Shown here: piece after piece, positions 1 to 8,112 of the stretch
Layout of the letters: the number at the start of each line of letters is the position of its first letter
Numbering within the stretch: position 1 is the first letter of the stretch
Assembly: GCA_002712305.1 (NCBI GenBank)
Contig: PATE01000018.1
Span: forward strand, 1 to 8,112
Direction of reading: 5' to 3'
Length of the DNA stretch: 8,112 bases
DNA from: Gemmatimonadota bacterium
Lineage (GTDB): Bacteria > Latescibacterota > UBA2968 > UBA8231
Made by a program: the position numbers and the translations under genes
Notes under the pieces: model-generated
Told to the model about the DNA's origin: nothing
Database searches by the model: none
What the model saw: the letters and a program-made list of their open reading frames with translations, nothing else

Positions 1-1428
1 TGGCCAGTTTTCGGGGGGCAAATGGAAAATGAACCAATAACATGCCCCCACCCGATAGCGAGGCGCTCGCATGCGATAGGTTTCGTCGATTCGCCGCACA
101 TGTTCCGTCGCCAGATCTCTTCCATTCAGGGCAAAGCTGATAACGTCATCCTCCGTCACGGACTCGAGGCGGAAACGCAGCAGAACCTGATGGACACGAC
201 CCGCCTCACGCCAACGGGGCAGGTCGTCGGACGTACGCCATTGGGCCTCGAAGGGCTCATCGAGAGCCAGTTCAGCAGGCAATTGAAGGGCCTTACCAAT
301 ATCGGAGTCTGGATTCGCGAAACGCCCAGTCGTCGTGGGCACGTAGTACTGCTTGTCCTTCGGCGCCATCACTTCCGGATCTACGATTTCGCGCAGCTTC
401 TCGTAGAAGTCGGCCTCGTAGGGCCAATTGCCGAACCAATGTGCCAGGTAAAGCCCATCGACGCCCTGGGACCACAGGTTGCAGGCGGCAGCACGAATCG
501 TCTCGATGGGGCCCTGATACTGTCGATCTGAATCGACGAGACTCTGTACACACCCCATCACCTTCACGTCACGGCCCGAGGCCGCTTCGACAAATCCGCT
601 CACGTCGGCGTTCACGTCGATCAGTTCCGGGCCACCGAAGGTCTGTGCGACGACGACATCGACGAGACTCTCATCGATCCAGGCTCGCACATCGAGACCG
701 GCGGCATGACAGGCCTCCAGATCGCCCGGGACACGAACCACCAGGTGCCGATCGGCGCCGCTGCGGGTCAGCAAAGTGCGCACCTGCCGAATCCACTCAG
801 TCATCACCAAACGCCCTGCCTCGAGTTCGGTGGGATCGAAATACTGACAGAAGTAGTTCAGCTGTAGTTCGAATCCGTCGATATCGTAGCGATCGATGAC
901 CTCGTCGATCAGAGCAGATCGCTCCTGGCGGACCTCGTCGTGCATGAAATCGAGACAGGTATGCGCCGGTGAGGCCGGATCGACATTCCCTTTGGCGCCG
1001 ATCTCCAGGTGAGGGTGATCGAAACGAAACTCCGAACAACGAACGTCCTGCTCTCGCGGTCCCCTTCCCTGCTGCACCAGCAGGGTGGGATAGATGGCCA
1101 ACCCTTTGGCTCGAGCGCGGTCGATGATAAGCCGCAGCGGATCGTTACCCGACTCGATCGCCAGTCGGGCGTTGTGATGAGCGCGGCGGAACACGAGGTG
1201 GGGCCAGGTGGTGACATTGTGGCCCCAGAGTTCACCCACTTCAGACTCGTGCAGGACCGTACGACCGTCCCCGAGACAAAGCATCAGGGTGTCCACGGGC
1301 GTGCCCACCAGTTCGTCGACGGCCGCCTCGTATTGCTCGCGCGACATGGGGGTCTCGTACATGTAGATCAGCGGATGACGGCCATCGTGGTAGAACGCGA
1401 GGCGTGGTTTCGGATTGGGCGAGGGCAT
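1..1428 (-). CDS. Putative TIM-barrel glycoside-hydrolase-like protein (partial, C-terminus beyond window)
   Basis: An uninterrupted minus-strand frame opens with ATG at 1428 and stays open to base 1, giving 476 residues without a stop, so the C-terminus lies outside the window. I do not recognise a named family with certainty. The layout resembles a (beta/alpha)8 barrel of the glycosyl-hydrolase-like type: an N-terminal strand with YHDGRH (about residues 13-18), a segment AKGLAIYPTLLVQ (107-119), an acidic YDIDGFELQLNYF (181-193) like the strand-4 end of GH barrels, and GVDGLYLAHWFGNW (322-335) like a late barrel strand. From about residue 380 the sequence changes to beta-rich stretches ending in an LNGRDL turn, which would fit an added beta-sandwich domain. 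No signal peptide is evident, so it is probably cytoplasmic. It starts 8 bases after the Gfo/Idh/MocA gene and has no clear Shine-Dalgarno, so it is probably translationally coupled as the last visible gene of that operon. The catalytic residues and substrate are unknown. The existence of the gene is secure; the fold assignment is an inference. Confidence 0.72.
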   Translation of the reverse strand, partial: MPSPNPKPRLAFYHDGRHPLIYMYETPMSREQYEAAVDELVGTPVDTLMLCLGDGRTVLHESEVGELWGHNVTTWPHLVFRRAHHNARLAIESGNDPLRLIIDRARAKGLAIYPTLLVQQGRGPREQDVRCSEFRFDHPHLEIGAKGNVDPASPAHTCLDFMHDEVRQERSALIDEVIDRYDIDGFELQLNYFCQYFDPTELEAGRLVMTEWIRQVRTLLTRSGADRHLVVRVPGDLEACHAAGLDVRAWIDESLVDVVVAQTFGGPELIDVNADVSGFVEAASGRDVKVMGCVQSLVDSDRQYQGPIETIRAAACNLWSQGVDGLYLAHWFGNWPYEADFYEKLREIVDPEVMAPKDKQYYVPTTTGRFANPDSDIGKALQLPAELALDEPFEAQWRTSDDLPRWREAGRVHQVLLRFRLESVTEDDVISFALNGRDLATEHVRRIDETYRMRAPRYRVGACYWFIFHLPPENWP

Positions 1429-1436
1429 GGGCGATT

Positions 1437-2555
1437 TCAAGTCCAGTTCCTCGGGTCAGGTACGGTCACCCAGCTCGACCCCGTCGCCAGAGATTGCTGG
1501 CTGGCGAGCCCGGGAAGGGTCATATCCATGGCCTGATCGATACCGATGGCAAGCTCGGACTCTTCGTTTATGCTGCGTACGAAATCCTCCACTTCCCAGT
1601 AGTCGCCTCCCCCGTGGCCGGCGGCCAACGCTTCGGGCGGCGGATTCTTCCAGAAATCGGGGAGAAACTCATCCTCGAGTTCGCTGAGAGGCTCCCACTG
1701 GGGCTCCGCCTGGCGCGACCTGAGCCAGACCTTTGGTACGGCTTGAAAACCATCTCCTGACTCGTAGGCCCCCTCGGTGCCCTGCAGTGCATAGTGCGTC
1801 ATGTGGTGGGGCCGATTCGACAACATGTCCACGCGGATCTGGACCAATCCGCCTGATGCCATTCGGCACATCATCGTCACCGAGTCTTCCATCTCGTAGT
1901 GATCACCGCGGGGATCGGTGTAGTGGTGTCCGCTGCCGACGGCTGACACGGCAACGACCCGATCGCCGCGAAGACGGGTTTCGCTGAACCACTGCAACAC
2001 CGGGCCGAGAGAATGAGTCGGGTAGGTGCATCCATTCACGCCCGTCTGCCAACGGCGGCGCCAGGGCGTGCCTTCGTTCAATGCCTTGAGTTCGTGGACA
2101 TACGCGCCCTCACCATAGTAGACCTCGCCAAACAGTCCGGCGCGGGCCAACTCGCGTACGAGCACGTTCGATTTCATATACGTGAAATTCTCCGCCATCA
2201 TGTAGCGTCCGCCGCTCGAGCGTGCGGCACGCACCAGATCGCGACATTCCTCGATCGATACACCCGCCGTCACTTCGCTCAGCACATGAAGGTCATGAGC
2301 CAGGGCGCCGATCGCCTGCGGCGCGTGAAAGTGCATCGGCGTACCGATGACGACGGCATCGATCTGCCCCGAATCGAACATCGCCTCCGCATCGGTGAAA
2401 ACGTGATCGATGCCCAGCTCTGCCGCGTTGGCAGCGACCGCGTCGGCTCGAATATCACACAAGGCCGTCAACTGTGCCGCCGGATTTGCACGGATGGCGC
2501 GGACGAAACTGTTGCCCCGCCCTGCGGCGCCGATGATTCCGAATCGAATGGTCAT
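1437..2555 (-). CDS. Gfo/Idh/MocA-family NAD(P)-dependent oxidoreductase
   Basis: This 372-residue protein belongs to the family of sugar, inositol and amino-sugar dehydrogenases or NAD-dependent hydrolases. The N-terminal Rossmann fold shows GIIGAAGRG (6-14) for dinucleotide binding, an acidic CDIR (33-36) after strand 2 and VVIGTPMHFHAP (68-79) after strand 4. At the place of the usual EKP motif it has LSEVTAG (92-98), so the common lysine is absent; related subfamilies carry SEVP there. YMMAENFTYM (118-127) and TYPTHSLGPVLQWF (177-190) are typical of the substrate-side helix and C-terminal alpha/beta domain, with H181 the likely active-site histidine. I chose ATG at 2555 rather than GTG at 2567: the ATG overlaps the preceding gene's stop (ATGA) and follows a GGGAGG Shine-Dalgarno, while the GTG would lie within that signal's codons. 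It lies between the Ldh_2-like gene and the barrel protein, so it probably works on the same compound. The substrate is unknown. Confidence 0.93.
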   Translation of the reverse strand: MTIRFGIIGAAGRGNSFVRAIRANPAAQLTALCDIRADAVAANAAELGIDHVFTDAEAMFDSGQIDAVVIGTPMHFHAPQAIGALAHDLHVLSEVTAGVSIEECRDLVRAARSSGGRYMMAENFTYMKSNVLVRELARAGLFGEVYYGEGAYVHELKALNEGTPWRRRWQTGVNGCTYPTHSLGPVLQWFSETRLRGDRVVAVSAVGSGHHYTDPRGDHYEMEDSVTMMCRMASGGLVQIRVDMLSNRPHHMTHYALQGTEGAYESGDGFQAVPKVWLRSRQAEPQWEPLSELEDEFLPDFWKNPPPEALAAGHGGGDYWEVEDFVRSINEESELAIGIDQAMDMTLPGLASQQSLATGSSWVTVPDPRNWT

Positions 2556-3556
2556 GGAACCTCCCACGGCACGTTCACCGAGAGTCGTCGGCAGACGTTG
2601 TTTACGGCCTCTTGCTCCATCTTCCCGAAGGGCACCCCTTCGATTCGATGGTGCTCCATCCGTTCCGCCTCGATCGCTCCAGGAAGCAAAGCGCGGTCAT
2701 GGCCGGGAAAGGGTTCGTAGGTCTCGGCCACATCCCGAACCATCCGGTCTACGTCGGCGTGAAATGCGTCGAGATCGAGAGCGGCATCGATGCCGATCGC
2801 CAGGATCATGCCTCCTGAGTGCGCTCGAGGCCAACGGGCCAGCGTCTGTTCGTCGATGACGCTGACACCTGCCAGACTGCCACCCAGAAGCGCGGCGACT
2901 GCGGTGTAGCCAACGCTCTTGAAGAAGGCAGCGGGAATCTTTGGGATCAGTTCTTCGAATTCGGGTCCCACCTGATAGTCGGCCAGGATTCGGGTCGCCG
3001 CATCGAGCACGACACCTGGACTGTTCTTGCCGGGGATGGCGAAACAGATCGGCGGATTCCCAAAGAAAGCCAACTGTGGCTTTTTCTCTGCCTGAGACCT
3101 GCCACGATGTCTCCCGCCCTGAACCGAAAAGCCGACGCAGTCGGCTTCCATACACATGCGGCAGTAGTGGCCTGCTGACCCGTAGTGACCGATGGAACGC
3201 ACCGTAGCCATGCCCAGACCAAACTTCTGAGCCCGTTCGATGGCAGTCTCGGTTGCGCGCACCATCGGCAAATAGCCCAGGGAGCCGTCACCATCCAGGG
3301 CAACGACAGCGCCTTGGTCACTGATGATCTCGATTTTCGGATCTGGATTCAGGTTCCCATCTTCGAACGATTGGCAGTACCCATCGACCTGACGCGTTCC
3401 ATGGCTTCGGACGCCACGCAGGTCGGAGTTCACCAGCAAGCGCGTGATGAGTTGCGCGTGCTCGACCGGAACCCCTGCCGCCTCAAAACACTCGCGGGAG
3501 AATCGCAGGAGTTCCTGTTCGGGGACGGTGACAAATTCTTCGGGTGGTTGATTCAT
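2552..3556 (-). CDS. Ldh_2-family (malate/L-lactate/ureidoglycolate dehydrogenase-like) oxidoreductase
   Basis: This 334-residue protein matches the non-Rossmann Ldh_2 family, NAD(P)-dependent dehydrogenases of 2-hydroxy acids such as malate, L-lactate, ureidoglycolate or 2,3-diketogulonate. The signatures are LRGVRSHGTRQVDGY (46-60), with the catalytic-type histidine H52, then SIGHYGSAGHY (121-131), FGNPPICFAIPG (165-176) in place of the usual FGTNP segment, VVLDAATR (182-189) and a late LPGAIEAER (291-299). The stretch between D185 and K213 (in FFKSVGYT) is short and lacks the usual GW.D..G.PT.DP segment, so this is a divergent subfamily; members are often near 350 residues. ATG at 3556 follows GGAG with 5-base spacing. 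The stop overlaps the next gene by 4 bases. It is the first gene of the minus-strand operon and diverges from the M20 gene. Which 2-hydroxy or 2-oxo acid it uses cannot be read from the sequence. Confidence 0.9.
   Translation of the reverse strand: MNQPPEEFVTVPEQELLRFSRECFEAAGVPVEHAQLITRLLVNSDLRGVRSHGTRQVDGYCQSFEDGNLNPDPKIEIISDQGAVVALDGDGSLGYLPMVRATETAIERAQKFGLGMATVRSIGHYGSAGHYCRMCMEADCVGFSVQGGRHRGRSQAEKKPQLAFFGNPPICFAIPGKNSPGVVLDAATRILADYQVGPEFEELIPKIPAAFFKSVGYTAVAALLGGSLAGVSVIDEQTLARWPRAHSGGMILAIGIDAALDLDAFHADVDRMVRDVAETYEPFPGHDRALLPGAIEAERMEHHRIEGVPFGKMEQEAVNNVCRRLSVNVPWEVP
2560..2565 (-). promoter_or_regulatory. Shine-Dalgarno deciding the start of the Gfo/Idh/MocA gene
   Basis: On the minus strand GGGAGG lies 4 bases before ATG at 2555, inside the last codons of the Ldh_2-like gene. 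It supports the ATGA-overlap start over the GTG codon at 2567 and indicates translational coupling of the two genes. Confidence 0.7.
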
Positions 3557-3730: not shown

Positions 3731-4876
3731 ATGAAATTCGACGTCGTCAAGCTGACGAAAGATCTCGTAAGCTACAACTCCGAAAGTCTGAGAACCAACG
3801 TGCCTGTCACCGAACATGTGGCCTCGGTGATGAAGAAGATCGGTTTTCAGGTCGAACAGCTCGCCTATGATGATGTGAACGGCGTGCCCAAACTGTGCCT
3901 GGTGGGCAAACTGGGGAAGGGACGCGGCGGCCTCACCCTGATGAGTCACGACGACGTGGTGCCGGCAAAGAAGGAAGAGGGCTGGGTCGGCGACCCCTAT
4001 ACCGTCCGCACGTCGAAAGGAAAACTCTACGGCCGCGGCGTCTGTGACATGAAGGGCCCCCTGGCCGCCACGCTTTGCGCGGCAGCCAGGTACAAGGCGA
4101 AAGACCTCTCGTCGGCTCCGCTGTTCATCATCGTCACCGCAGACGAAGAGATTCAGGCTCGGGGCGCCTGGGAAGTGACCAAGCGCTCGCGGCTATTCGA
4201 GGAGGCAGCGGGGGGATACGGTCTGATCTGTGAGCCGACACTGCTCAAGGTCGTCTATGCCCACAAAGGGTCTCTGGGGCTGCGTGTGACCTCCAAAGGG
4301 CGTGCCGCCCATACAAGCACGCTAAAGGGAACCAACGCGAATCTCGCGATGATCCCCTTTCTCGCGGAAATGTCCAAGATCAACGATCTGGTGCTGTCCT
4401 CGAAACGGTATCGCAACGAGGAATTCAACCCACCCCATTCGGAGTGGAGTATCGGCATCAACGACAACAATGTGGCGACCAATATCTCGCCCGTCACCAG
4501 CGTATGCACGGTCAATCACCGGCCCATGCCGGGAATCGACGTGAACCCGCTCATTGAACGTGCCCGTGCAAAAGCGAAAGCTCAGGGCCTGAAAATCGAA
4601 ATCTTCAAGCCAGGCAATGGCCTCTATACGTCTCCGGATGCCTCCATCGTCCAGACCGCTCTCAAGATGACGGGAACCCGCAAAGCAGGGACGGTCGCCT
4701 ACGGGACCGATGGCCTGGCGTTCTCAACGAAGATGAAGAGTCTCGTCGTACTCGGACCCGGCAACATCGCCCAGGCTCACACGGTCGACGAGTGGGTTGA
4801 GATCGATCAACTGAAAAAGGGCGTGGATCTCTACGCCCGATTCATCGACCATGTCTGTGTAAAGGGTCAGGCCTAG
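3731..4876 (+). CDS. M20-family metallopeptidase/deacylase (ArgE/DapE/CPG2 superfamily)
   Basis: This 381-residue protein is a two-zinc amidohydrolase of the M20 family, which removes acyl groups from amino acids or cleaves peptides in the cytoplasm. All expected ligands are visible: MSHDDVVPA (71-79) gives H73 and D75, GRGVCDMKGPLAA (101-113) gives bridging D106, TADEE (136-140) gives catalytic E139 and ligand E140, CEPT (167-170) gives E168, and AQAHTVDEWVEI (348-359) gives H350. VTSKGRAAHTS (186-196) with H194 marks the lid/dimerisation domain. The length fits ArgE or DapE (about 375-390). The motifs look more like ArgE/CPG2 than classical DapE, but the substrate cannot be fixed. An in-frame TGA at 3725-3727 makes ATG 3731 the earliest possible ATG start; no strong Shine-Dalgarno precedes it. 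It is the only plus-strand gene here, and its stop overlaps that of asd. Lysine content is about 8.7%, against 1-2.5% in the other genes, which may mark a different origin. Confidence 0.9.
   Translation: MKFDVVKLTKDLVSYNSESLRTNVPVTEHVASVMKKIGFQVEQLAYDDVNGVPKLCLVGKLGKGRGGLTLMSHDDVVPAKKEEGWVGDPYTVRTSKGKLYGRGVCDMKGPLAATLCAAARYKAKDLSSAPLFIIVTADEEIQARGAWEVTKRSRLFEEAAGGYGLICEPTLLKVVYAHKGSLGLRVTSKGRAAHTSTLKGTNANLAMIPFLAEMSKINDLVLSSKRYRNEEFNPPHSEWSIGINDNNVATNISPVTSVCTVNHRPMPGIDVNPLIERARAKAKAQGLKIEIFKPGNGLYTSPDASIVQTALKMTGTRKAGTVAYGTDGLAFSTKMKSLVVLGPGNIAQAHTVDEWVEIDQLKKGVDLYARFIDHVCVKGQA
4873..4876. other. Convergent stop codons overlapping in a CTAG palindrome
   Basis: The plus-strand M20 gene ends in TAG at 4874-4876, and the minus-strand asd gene ends in TAG read from 4875-4873, sharing CTAG. 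There is therefore no intergenic space for a terminator, and each transcript must end inside the other gene or run antisense through it. Confidence 0.9.
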
Positions 4877-5922
4877 CCGACGGCAGCAACTTCGCGCTTA
4901 AGAAGGCCGCGCTCGATCAGCGTCTCGGCGATCTGGACGGCATTGAGTGCCGCCCCCTTGCGCAGCTGATCTCCGCACAGAAACAGGTCGATCCCCCGAC
5001 CATCTGGCTGCGACAGGTCTCGACGGATCCGCCCAACGAAGACGTCATCTTCGCCGGAAGCTTCCAGGGGCATGGGGAAGTGATTCGCCTCTCGGTTGTC
5101 GACGAGGGTGACACCCGGTGCACTGCTGAGGATTTCGCGCACCCGCTCTTCGTCCATGGGTTCGGCGAATTCGATGTTCAACGTCTCCGAATGCGTTCGC
5201 GGCACGGGAACGCGAATACAGGACGGCGTGATGCGCAGGTCGTCGTCGTGAAACATCTTGCGTGTCTCACGGATCATCTTCTCTTCTTCTTCGCAGTACC
5301 CATCGGGACCGATCGCCGAATTGTGAGAGAAGAGATTGAAGGCGATGGGATGGGGCAGTTCTTTGGGCGCCGCCGCCTTGCCGGCCAGCACGTCTCGGGT
5401 CTGCTGTTCCAGTTCGGCCATCGCTGCAGCACCTGCACCGCTGATCGCTTGATAGGTCGAAACGACGACACGCCTGATTCGGATCTGCTCGTACAGGGGC
5501 CACAAGACAACGACCATGATAATGGTCGAGCAGTTTGGATTGGCCACAATTCCCTGATGATCGTCGAGGTCTGCGGAGTTGACTTCGGGCACCACGAGCG
5601 GAACCTGCGGATCCATGCGAAAAGCGGACGTGTTGTCCACGACCACGGCCCCAGCCTCGACGGCGGCGGGCACGAATTCACGACTCAGAGATCCGTTGGC
5701 TGAAGAGAGCACCAGATCGATTCCCTCGAAGGAGTCCTTCGACAACTCCTGAATCGTCAGCGTATCCCCACGAAAGTCGACGGTCTTACCCGCAGAGCGA
5801 CTCGAAGCGAGAAGACGTAACTCACCGACGGGAAAGTTTCGTTGCTGAAGGATTTCAAGGAAAACCTGCCCCACTGCGCCTGTAGCGCCCATGATGGCGA
5901 CGTTGTAGTTGCCTGACATCAT
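4873..5922 (-). CDS. asd: Aspartate-semialdehyde dehydrogenase
   Basis: It converts 4-phospho-L-aspartate and NADPH to L-aspartate 4-semialdehyde, the branch point to lysine/diaminopimelate, threonine and methionine. The 349-residue length is normal for bacterial Asd. The N-terminal Rossmann fold has GATGAVG (12-18). SANGSLSREFVP (74-85) and DNTSAFRMD (96-104) follow. The catalytic cysteine is C131 in NPNCST, Q159 lies in YQAISGAG, and the EEEEKMIRETRK run (211-222) carries substrate-binding residues. IRVPVPRTHSETLNIEF (236-252) contains the catalytic histidine H244, and GDQLRKGAALNAVQIAE (317-333) is the typical C-terminal signature. Two ATG codons stand in tandem (5922 and 5919); only a weak GAG lies upstream, so the start is uncertain by one codon. 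It is third in the order hom, ApgM-like, asd, separated from the ApgM-like gene by 54 bases. Its product feeds hom, so the cluster is one pathway. Assignment is secure. Confidence 0.96.
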   Translation of the reverse strand: MMSGNYNVAIMGATGAVGQVFLEILQQRNFPVGELRLLASSRSAGKTVDFRGDTLTIQELSKDSFEGIDLVLSSANGSLSREFVPAAVEAGAVVVDNTSAFRMDPQVPLVVPEVNSADLDDHQGIVANPNCSTIIMVVVLWPLYEQIRIRRVVVSTYQAISGAGAAAMAELEQQTRDVLAGKAAAPKELPHPIAFNLFSHNSAIGPDGYCEEEEKMIRETRKMFHDDDLRITPSCIRVPVPRTHSETLNIEFAEPMDEERVREILSSAPGVTLVDNREANHFPMPLEASGEDDVFVGRIRRDLSQPDGRGIDLFLCGDQLRKGAALNAVQIAETLIERGLLKREVAAVG

Positions 5923-5976: not shown

Positions 5977-5989
5977 CTATTTCTGCAAC
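5964..5989. repeat. 10-base direct repeat around the ApgM-like stop codon
   Basis: TTTCTGCAAC occurs at 5964-5973 and again at 5980-5989, offset by 16 bases. On the minus strand one copy encodes the last Leu-Gln-Lys codons and the other follows just after the TAG stop. It looks like a small local duplication; no function is evident. Confidence 0.6.
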
Positions 5990-7176
5990 AACGTGGCCAT
6001 CAAACGGTGCCCGTGTTCCACCTGTTGGCTGCCCAGTTCGGCACCCACCTCATCATAGGTACTCATGTCATCGGCATCGATGCCCTCACCCCACAGCACA
6101 AAGGGGACGGGCTCGCGGGTGTGCGTCCGATTCGGGATGGGCGTGCGATGATCGGGGGTCATCAGTCCTCGTACGGGCACGCCGTCGTCGTCAAGGCCCT
6201 TCAGCAAGGGTGCCACGACGCGACCATCGAAGTCTTCGAGCGCCTGAACCTTCGCTGCGGCGTCACCATTGTGCCCCGCCTCGTCCGGTGCTTCCACATG
6301 GACGTAGAGCAGATCGGTTCCAGCCCGGAACGCATCGAGAGCGTATTGGGCCTTGCCCTCGTAGTTCGTATCGAGGTAACCCGTAATCCCCGGAACGTCG
6401 ATGACCTCGTATCCGGCGCAGGAGCCGATCCCGCGAACCAGATCAACCGCTGAGATCACACCTGCTTTGACACCGTATCTTTCACCCACACTTGGCAGAA
6501 TCAGAGGTCGCCCTTCACCCCACAGCCAGATCCCGTTGGCGGGACGTTCGCCGCGTGCCGTGCGTTCGGCGTTGGTCTTGGCTTCTGCCAGAATCGGGGC
6601 CGCCTTCTCCATCAAGGCGTGGATGGTCTCGACCCCTTCGCCCTGCGGCAGATGTTCGCGCCCAGATTGGCCCATGATGTCGTGCGGCGGGTACGAGGTC
6701 AGCCCCTCGGGGCCCTGGTCGTAGAGGACGATGTGCCGATATCCCACACCAGGAAAAAAACGTATCGTCTCGGTCCCCAGGCGCGCGCCGAGTTCCTCGA
6801 CCAAGGCACGTCCTTCCTCGGTCTCGATGTGTCCGGCGCTGTAGTCGACGAGGGTGTCGCCTTCGTTATACACGAGATTGCACCGAAACGCGATATCGTC
6901 GGGGCCCATCTCCAGACCCATACTTGCCGCCTCGAGAGGTGCCCGGCCCGTGTAGTGGACGGTGCTGTCGTAGCCGAAGATTTCCAGATTGCCCACATCG
7001 CTGCCCGGGTGCCGACTGGGCGGAATCATCTGGACCATACCGCCTTGCCCCTGAAGCGCAAGTCTATCCATGTTCGGCGTCTTGGCCGCCTGCAGCGGCG
7101 TGCACCCATCTAGCTCGTCCAAGGCGTAGTCGGCCGCCCCATCGGGTACGAGCACCAGATAACGCAGATCTGCCAA
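5977..7176 (-). CDS. ApgM-family phosphoglycerate-mutase-like protein; proposed homoserine kinase
   Basis: This 399-residue protein belongs to the alkaline-phosphatase superfamily branch of archaeal-type cofactor-independent phosphoglycerate mutase. Seen in sequence: VLVPDGAAD (8-16) with metal ligand D12, PGSDVGNLEIFGYD (57-70) with S59 the probable phospho-acceptor serine, EAPDEAGHNGD (295-305) with D298 and H302, MTPDHRTP (339-346) with D342 and H343, and RTHTREPVPF (350-359) with H352. NGIWLWGEGRP (214-224) and VPGITGYLDTNYEGK (261-275) resemble the subgroup (TIGR02535) proposed as homoserine kinase from its co-occurrence with threonine genes. It starts 1 base after hom and asd follows, so by context it would phosphorylate homoserine, an inference. 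A glycolytic mutase role remains the alternative. The start is TTG at 7176, chosen because GGAGG lies 9 bases upstream, within the last codons of hom. Confidence 0.88.
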   Translation of the reverse strand: MADLRYLVLVPDGAADYALDELDGCTPLQAAKTPNMDRLALQGQGGMVQMIPPSRHPGSDVGNLEIFGYDSTVHYTGRAPLEAASMGLEMGPDDIAFRCNLVYNEGDTLVDYSAGHIETEEGRALVEELGARLGTETIRFFPGVGYRHIVLYDQGPEGLTSYPPHDIMGQSGREHLPQGEGVETIHALMEKAAPILAEAKTNAERTARGERPANGIWLWGEGRPLILPSVGERYGVKAGVISAVDLVRGIGSCAGYEVIDVPGITGYLDTNYEGKAQYALDAFRAGTDLLYVHVEAPDEAGHNGDAAAKVQALEDFDGRVVAPLLKGLDDDGVPVRGLMTPDHRTPIPNRTHTREPVPFVLWGEGIDADDMSTYDEVGAELGSQQVEHGHRLMATLLQK

Positions 7177-7177
7177 T

Positions 7178-8112
7178 TTACAGATCCTCCATGCGGATCA
7201 GCCGGGTCGCCCCCTCGGTGAAGTCGAGAGCATCGATCGCCGCCACCGCTTGGCGCATGGACCGCTCACGGGCCTCATGGGTGACGATGATCAAGGTCAC
7301 CGTGCCCCCTTCCAGATCACGCTCCTTCTGAATCACAGAGGCAATGCTGATCTCTTCCCGTGCCAGAAGCTGCGTGATCTGCGACAACACGCCGGGGCGA
7401 TCGGCGACACGCATGCGCAGGAAGTAACGAATGACACTGTCCTCGATGTCGGCGAAGGATACCGCCTCGTCATCGAGGATCATATCGCCAATCGCCGTCG
7501 TCGCACCCATTCGCTTGCGCTCGGCCAACTCGACCAGATCGGAGACCACGGCAGACGCCGTTGGCATCTGCCCGGCGCCAGCCCCGTAGAACACCTGATT
7601 GCCCACGGCGCTGCCGACGATCTCGATCGCGTTGAACTCGTCGTGAATGTTGGCCAGCAGCGACTCACTCGGTACCATGGCGGGATGCACTCGGGCCTCA
7701 ACACGTCCGTCGGCGGTGTGTTTGGCAATGGCGAGCAACTTGATGGTATAGCCAAGTTCAGCGGCGGTCTCGATGTCGCTGGATTCGACGTGCTCGATGC
7801 CCTCGCAGTAGAGATCCTGCGCCGTGCCCGTCGCGTGAAATGCGATACGTCCGAGGATAGCCAGCTTCTGCGCCGCATCCATGCCCGATACATCCATCGT
7901 CGGATCCGGTTCGGCATAACCCTTTTCCTGCGCTTCGGCGAGGATTTCATCGTAGTCGCCTTCCCCGCGGGTCATGCGAGTCATCATGTAGTTCGTCGTC
8001 CCATTGAGGATCCCATAGAGAGACTCGACTCGGTTGGCCACCAGACCACTTCGCAACGAGCGAATGATGGGGATGCCGGCGGCGACGCTTGCCTCGAACA
8101 GCAGATCGACGC
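7178..8112 (-). CDS. hom: Homoserine dehydrogenase with C-terminal ACT domain (N-terminus beyond window)
   Basis: It reduces L-aspartate 4-semialdehyde to L-homoserine with NAD(P)H, the first committed step to threonine and methionine. The frame is open to the right edge, so the 310 residues seen are the catalytic and regulatory parts, and the N-terminal Rossmann domain lies outside. Numbering from the window edge, FEASVAAGIPII (5-16), GILNGTTNY (33-41), AEPDPTMDVSGMDAAQKLAI (66-85) and YGAGAGQMPTASAVVSDL (175-192) are the hallmark substrate- and cofactor-site motifs of the family. From about 229 to 308 an ACT domain follows, opening with YFLRMRVADRPGVLSQI, which in this enzyme class senses end products, usually threonine. 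The protein ends in TAA at 7180-7178, and the ApgM-like gene starts after a single base. TTG at 8056 is an internal leucine, not a start. It appears to be a monofunctional hom; no aspartokinase part is visible, although the N-terminus is unseen. Confidence 0.95.
   Translation of the reverse strand, partial: VDLLFEASVAAGIPIIRSLRSGLVANRVESLYGILNGTTNYMMTRMTRGEGDYDEILAEAQEKGYAEPDPTMDVSGMDAAQKLAILGRIAFHATGTAQDLYCEGIEHVESSDIETAAELGYTIKLLAIAKHTADGRVEARVHPAMVPSESLLANIHDEFNAIEIVGSAVGNQVFYGAGAGQMPTASAVVSDLVELAERKRMGATTAIGDMILDDEAVSFADIEDSVIRYFLRMRVADRPGVLSQITQLLAREEISIASVIQKERDLEGGTVTLIIVTHEARERSMRQAVAAIDALDFTEGATRLIRMEDL
7186..7190 (-). promoter_or_regulatory. Shine-Dalgarno fixing the TTG start of the ApgM-like gene
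   Basis: GGAGG on the minus strand lies within the final Met-Glu-Asp-Leu codons of hom, 9 bases before TTG at 7176. This supports the rare TTG start and translational coupling to hom. Confidence 0.7.

Follow-up and report, generated by a model that had tools for sequence, protein, structure and literature searches.

The locus raises the question of what an enzyme with the fold of the ApgM-type phosphoglycerate mutases does between two genes of the aspartate family pathway, and whether it could be the homoserine kinase of its host. The window, that is the whole stretch of 8,112 nucleotides that was analysed, is located at the end of a contig of 37 kb, which belongs to a MAG of 4.77 Mb with a completeness of 90.9%. 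On the minus strand, hom (stop codon at 7180-7178) is followed after 1 base by the ApgM-type gene and, after a further 54 bases, by asd (start at 5922; Table 1); open reading frames and coordinates agree with the earlier note, which had described the gene between hom and asd and the 1-base junction to hom. A GGAGG motif is located nine bases upstream of the TTG. The complete hom gene is found at G000:C39:7181-8479, and the product of the part inside the window matched NF004976 with 368.5 bits (cut-off 205) as well as the Homoserine_dh and ACT domains. Elsewhere in the window, a gene for a protein with a GHL10 glycosyl-hydrolase-like domain (1-1440, minus strand) adjoins genes for a GFO/IDH/MocA oxidoreductase (1437-2567, minus strand) and an Ldh_2 dehydrogenase (2552-3556, minus strand), and an M20 peptidase of the acetylornithine deacetylase type, with a score below the curated ArgE cut-off (232.2 versus 297.7), is encoded at 3731-4876 on the plus strand.

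Table 1. Positions of the three genes and of selected motifs of the ApgM-type protein in the window
Feature	Position	Strand	Remarks
ApgM-type gene, TIGR02535 'proposed homoserine kinase'	5977..7176	-	399 aa, TTG start at 7176
hom, homoserine dehydrogenase with C-terminal ACT domain	7178..8112	-	extends beyond the window edge
asd, aspartate-semialdehyde dehydrogenase	4873..5922	-	NF011456 466.7 bits (cut-off 223), TIGR01296 435.8 (cut-off 324.2)
Ser59 codon, putative phosphate acceptor	7000..7002	-	invariant in 65/65 relatives; also in solved archaeal mutases
NGIWLWGEGRP, residues 214-224	6505..6537	-	W217 and W219 subgroup-specific
HVEAPDEAGH, residues 293-302	6271..6300	-	metal ligands D298 and H302 amid subgroup-specific E295, P297 and E299

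The ApgM-type protein matched TIGR02535 with 486.6 bits over residues 5-398 (cut-off 446.3), and it also passed NF003242, which is named 'cofactor-independent phosphoglycerate mutase' (501.3 bits, cut-off 426), and TIGR00306. Its profile matches were confined to ApgM-type families, PhpG and phosphopentomutases, and the model of the GHMP homoserine kinases, TIGR00191, was not matched in the profile search. In a profile comparison with GpmI, the alignment was confined to the C-terminal metal region. The AlphaFold model (pLDDT 96.6) was most similar to the P. horikoshii structure 2zkt (TM 0.85), followed by 3kd8 from T. acidophilum, the Foldseek alignments showing 28% and 27% identity, respectively. 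The protein belongs to the ApgM type of the alkaline phosphatase superfamily, with D12, D298, H302, D342, H343 and H352 as metal ligands and S59 as the acceptor, all of them invariant in the 65 aligned relatives, and the retention of metal ligands and putative acceptor serine noticed earlier thus extends to every relative in the alignment.

The fold, the two-metal site and the acceptor serine are shared with the ApgM mutases of known structure (2zkt and 3kd8), but 12 positions have been swapped. In the window protein, positions 63, 112, 113, 116, 165, 166, 217, 219, 245, 295, 297 and 299 read NYSHHDWWDEPE, a combination found in 51 of the 65 aligned relatives; a variant with C113 and D116 occurs in four of the 65, including L064, L083 and L054. 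In contrast, the two solved archaeal mutases, for which the rows of the comparison were rebuilt from the HMMER alignment, and the C66 type described below have HRRR at positions 63, 112, 113 and 116, R219 and K295. The mutase residues DRRAGR, Arg219 and Lys295 are replaced by DYSAGH, W219 and E295 in the window protein, and they are absent from every one of the aligned relatives. In comparison with true mutases, arginine and lysine have been lost and acidic and aromatic residues have been gained, consistently across the relatives. The motif NGIWLWGEGRP had been associated in the earlier note with the subgroup annotated as proposed homoserine kinase, and the motif is present in a protein that passes TIGR02535. 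W217 and W219 are invariant within the subgroup, and the mutases used for comparison have Arg at position 219. In mutases, DRRAGR, Arg219 and Lys295 would bind phosphoglycerate, and their loss, together with the gain of D166, D245, E295 and E299, would make the site more favourable for a substrate carrying an amino group than for phosphoglycerate. The calcium-site Glu41 of 2zkt is reported not to be conserved in BT2402, the homologue from B. thetaiotaomicron (PMC9765024), and the same applies to the window protein, which has Leu.

The same genome encodes a paralogue, C66, that passes the phosphoglycerate mutase model NF003160 (477.2 bits, cut-off 468), and neither gpmI nor gpmA was found over cut-off. 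A C66-type mutase is present in 19 of 20 genomes of the host's family. The remaining genome, G003, encodes a GpmI that scores over cut-off and has kept the ApgM-type gene, which adjoins lysC in that genome, and G011 is devoid of the ApgM-type gene and retains the C66-type mutase. Therefore, the mutase role is linked to C66 or GpmI and not to the window gene. As a separate observation, C66-type mutases (L002:1134-2252 and four others) have Glu instead of the metal-ligand His (H302) of the other ApgM proteins, and their positions 16 and 60 are occupied by Gly.

A threonine synthase gene, thrC, was found over cut-off at G000:C86, and a second threonine synthase is encoded at C82 (NF006050, 575.8 bits, cut-off 303). 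The absence of a GHMP-type ThrB from the window had already been pointed out, and it holds for the genome: TIGR00191 yielded no match over cut-off in the 90.9% complete MAG, and the best match was IspE. The earlier note had recommended a search for thrC and for another mutase, both of which were thus found, and had named a canonical thrB without any other mutase as a result that would count against it; the genome has the ApgM paralogue C66 and no thrB over cut-off. The GHMP kinase at C72 was considered as a hidden ThrB and rejected, as it is IspE (TIGR00154 over cut-off), and its gene adjoins genes resembling those for ribosomal protein L25 and pth. The alternative model thrB_alt (TIGR00938) had no match in this genome and none over cut-off in the host's family. 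G001, from the same genus, and G019, which consists of one contig, are likewise without GHMP thrB over cut-off.

Two other types of homoserine kinase are instructive for comparison. GHMP ThrB (TIGR00191) makes the product that is predicted for the window protein and acts at the same step, but it is an ATP-dependent GHMP kinase of unrelated fold. The shikimate-kinase-related homoserine kinase DvMF_0971 of Desulfovibrio fills the same missing step non-orthologously, and its role has been confirmed by complementation (PMC5764234); however, it has another fold, and no good counterpart was found in the present genome. A shikimate-kinase-like homoserine kinase was rejected here, because the sole strong shikimate kinase, AroK, adjoins aroB and aroE, and of the remaining matches, one resembles gluconokinase and the other is a divergent protein in which the Walker lysine is missing. 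The counterparts inspected in G001, G006 and G019 are also devoid of this lysine, and L244:629-1228, L250, L251 and L254 represent this divergent shikimate-kinase-like family in the present genome, G019, G006 and G001.

The distribution of the two genes in the host's family is patchy. An ApgM-type gene over cut-off is present in 16 of the 20 genomes and GHMP thrB in 12 (10 over cut-off and two fragments cut at contig edges): eight genomes have only the ApgM-type gene, including the one-contig G019, eight have both (the cut thrB genes belong to two of these), four have only GHMP thrB, and none has neither. In 20 genomes from other families of the class, GHMP thrB over cut-off was found in all and the ApgM-type gene over cut-off in none. 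Across the class, GHMP thrB is missing from 8/16 genomes with the ApgM-type gene and from 0/24 without it (Fisher p 1.7e-4, kinship being ignored), and within the family alone the association has a p value of 0.12. One genome, G011, represents a clean deletion, in which hom and asd are immediate neighbours, the ApgM-type gene is absent over cut-off there and elsewhere, and GHMP thrB is present. The other genomes without the gene are little informative, G010 because hom is cut by the contig end, and G017 and G018 because hom and asd are missing as well; in the latter two, a search at E 1e-20 yielded no hom or asd similar to those of the window, and an ApgM-type gene over cut-off was likewise not found. 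Matches to GHMP thrB and threonine synthase are present in G017 and G018, and the absence of hom and asd is either a true loss or reflects missing assembly. In L135, L178 (G014), L130, L133 and L188, all from genomes of the family, the gene that comes after GHMP thrB resembles those for NAD-dependent epimerases and is neither hom nor thrC.

In other lineages, 50 genomes that carry close relatives of the gene were compared, and 48 of them have no GHMP thrB over cut-off, a number that overstates the independent events, because the genomes share ancestry. In the two exceptions, L064 and L083, GHMP thrB is present and the ApgM-type gene is not located beside hom. Gene context was analysed for 67 relatives, eight of them from the host's family, for which 1 kb or more of upstream sequence was available. 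In 48/67, hom is encoded on the same strand at a distance of no more than 400 bp, and the number rises to 54/67 when asd, lysC and thrC are counted as well. The gene order is thus not due to chance. Omnitrophota members have the order hom-thrC-gene, and a Heliobacteriaceae member has gene-hom-thrC-lysC.

Taken together, the presence of thrC, the lack of thrB over cut-off, the separate mutase, the operon context and the residue swaps give good support to a role in the threonine pathway, and the ApgM-type protein is probably the enzyme that phosphorylates homoserine, acting between Hom and ThrC. The non-orthologous replacement of homoserine kinase proposed in the earlier note is therefore upheld as a pathway role, but it is not strict throughout the family, in which eight of the 16 gene-bearing genomes also have GHMP thrB. 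This coexistence counts against a homoserine kinase role, as do the 90.9% completeness of the MAG and a complementation result for BT2402. Mutants of BT2402 require threonine in minimal medium (PMC7311316), which supports the role, and yet BT2402 did not rescue a thrB mutant of E. coli (cited as a personal communication in PMC7311316). These two results, like the half of the gene-bearing family genomes that also carry GHMP thrB, would fit a partner or activator of the threonine pathway, or a guarding phosphatase, the kinase being another, unrecognized protein. However, no GHMP kinase over cut-off is available for that part in eight family genomes and in 48/50 others, the family has no thrB_alt over cut-off, and the additional shikimate-kinase-like proteins inspected in this genome, G001, G006 and G019 are without the Walker lysine or gluconokinase-like, so that a mere accessory function is unlikely.

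Another possibility is that the enzyme is a broader amino-acid-alcohol phosphotransferase, with L-threonine as its main substrate in some genomes, for cobalamin synthesis, and homoserine also being served. At L096:4452-7224 (Desulfobulbaceae), cobI/cbiL and cobM/cbiF are immediately followed by a TIGR02535 gene whose product has the full signature, GHMP thrB over cut-off being absent from this genome, and Dehre_1608, a TIGR02535-type member in a cobalamin operon, has been proposed to be an L-threonine kinase (PMC4285132). Nevertheless, the neighbours here and in most relatives are hom, asd, lysC or thrC, which makes this explanation quite unlikely for the present locus. An ordinary phosphoglycerate mutase that sits by chance in an aspartate-family operon, as the name of NF003242 and the fold in common with the archaeal mutases might suggest, is very unlikely in view of the separate named mutase, the gene content of G003 and G011, the missing mutase residues and the frequent adjacency to hom.

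Enzymes with the ApgM-type fold work through a phosphoserine. For a homoserine-phosphorylating enzyme of this fold, two bound metal ions would activate Ser59, which would take the phosphoryl group from a small phosphorylated donor; by analogy with the established chemistry of the fold, phospho-Ser59 would then pass it to the hydroxyl group of homoserine, yielding O-phosphohomoserine for ThrC. The idea that ATP is the donor, also contained in the earlier note, was not supported: no nucleotide-binding motif was noticed in the protein, the fold is of the phosphoserine type, and the TIGRFam curators, who proposed the homoserine kinase role, suggested a donor such as phosphoenolpyruvate (PMC7311316). 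A phosphate ester or an enol phosphate seems somewhat more likely than ATP. An enzyme assay of any TIGR02535 member, including identification of the phosphate donor, was not found in the open-licence literature searched.

It should be noted that the idea is not new at the level of the family, as the earlier note had stated, because it has been put forward in PMC7311316, for gut genomes in PMC9026213, and, with threonine as substrate, in PMC4285132. In a GapMind analysis, ThrB was a low-confidence step in 29 of 148 organisms, 15 of which carry TIGR02535 (PMC7311316). Like the TIGR02535 (hyp_Hser_kinase) members of Bacteroidetes and Firmicutes represented by BT2402 ('ThrB2'), the window protein scores over cut-off, has a hom/asd/thrC/lysC context and the metal ligands, and is not accompanied by GHMP thrB; it differs in the Latescibacterota-type host lineage, the operon hom-gene-asd with separate Hom and Asd, and the co-occurrence with GHMP thrB in some but not all genomes of one family. 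What this case adds is the host lineage, the operon of G011, the separate mutase and the 12-position signature, and the genome comparisons strengthen the earlier proposal of a homoserine kinase. A missing homoserine kinase is among the commonest gaps in the prediction of amino-acid pathways, and if TIGR02535 is the kinase, many presumed threonine auxotrophs would in fact be prototrophs, and the family would be a case of a mutase fold adapted to the transfer of phosphate between molecules. More tentatively, and with somewhat less than even confidence, the whole of TIGR02535 may comprise phosphoserine-based amino-acid-alcohol phosphotransferases that use phosphoenolpyruvate or phosphoglycerate and not ATP as the donor, the substrate being homoserine for members in threonine operons and, perhaps, L-threonine for those in cobalamin operons.

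In a more distant ApgM-like protein from Ruminococcaceae (L110:6001-7113, 26% identity), which looks inactive, both Trp residues have been kept, but the acceptor Ser and most of the metal ligands have been lost.
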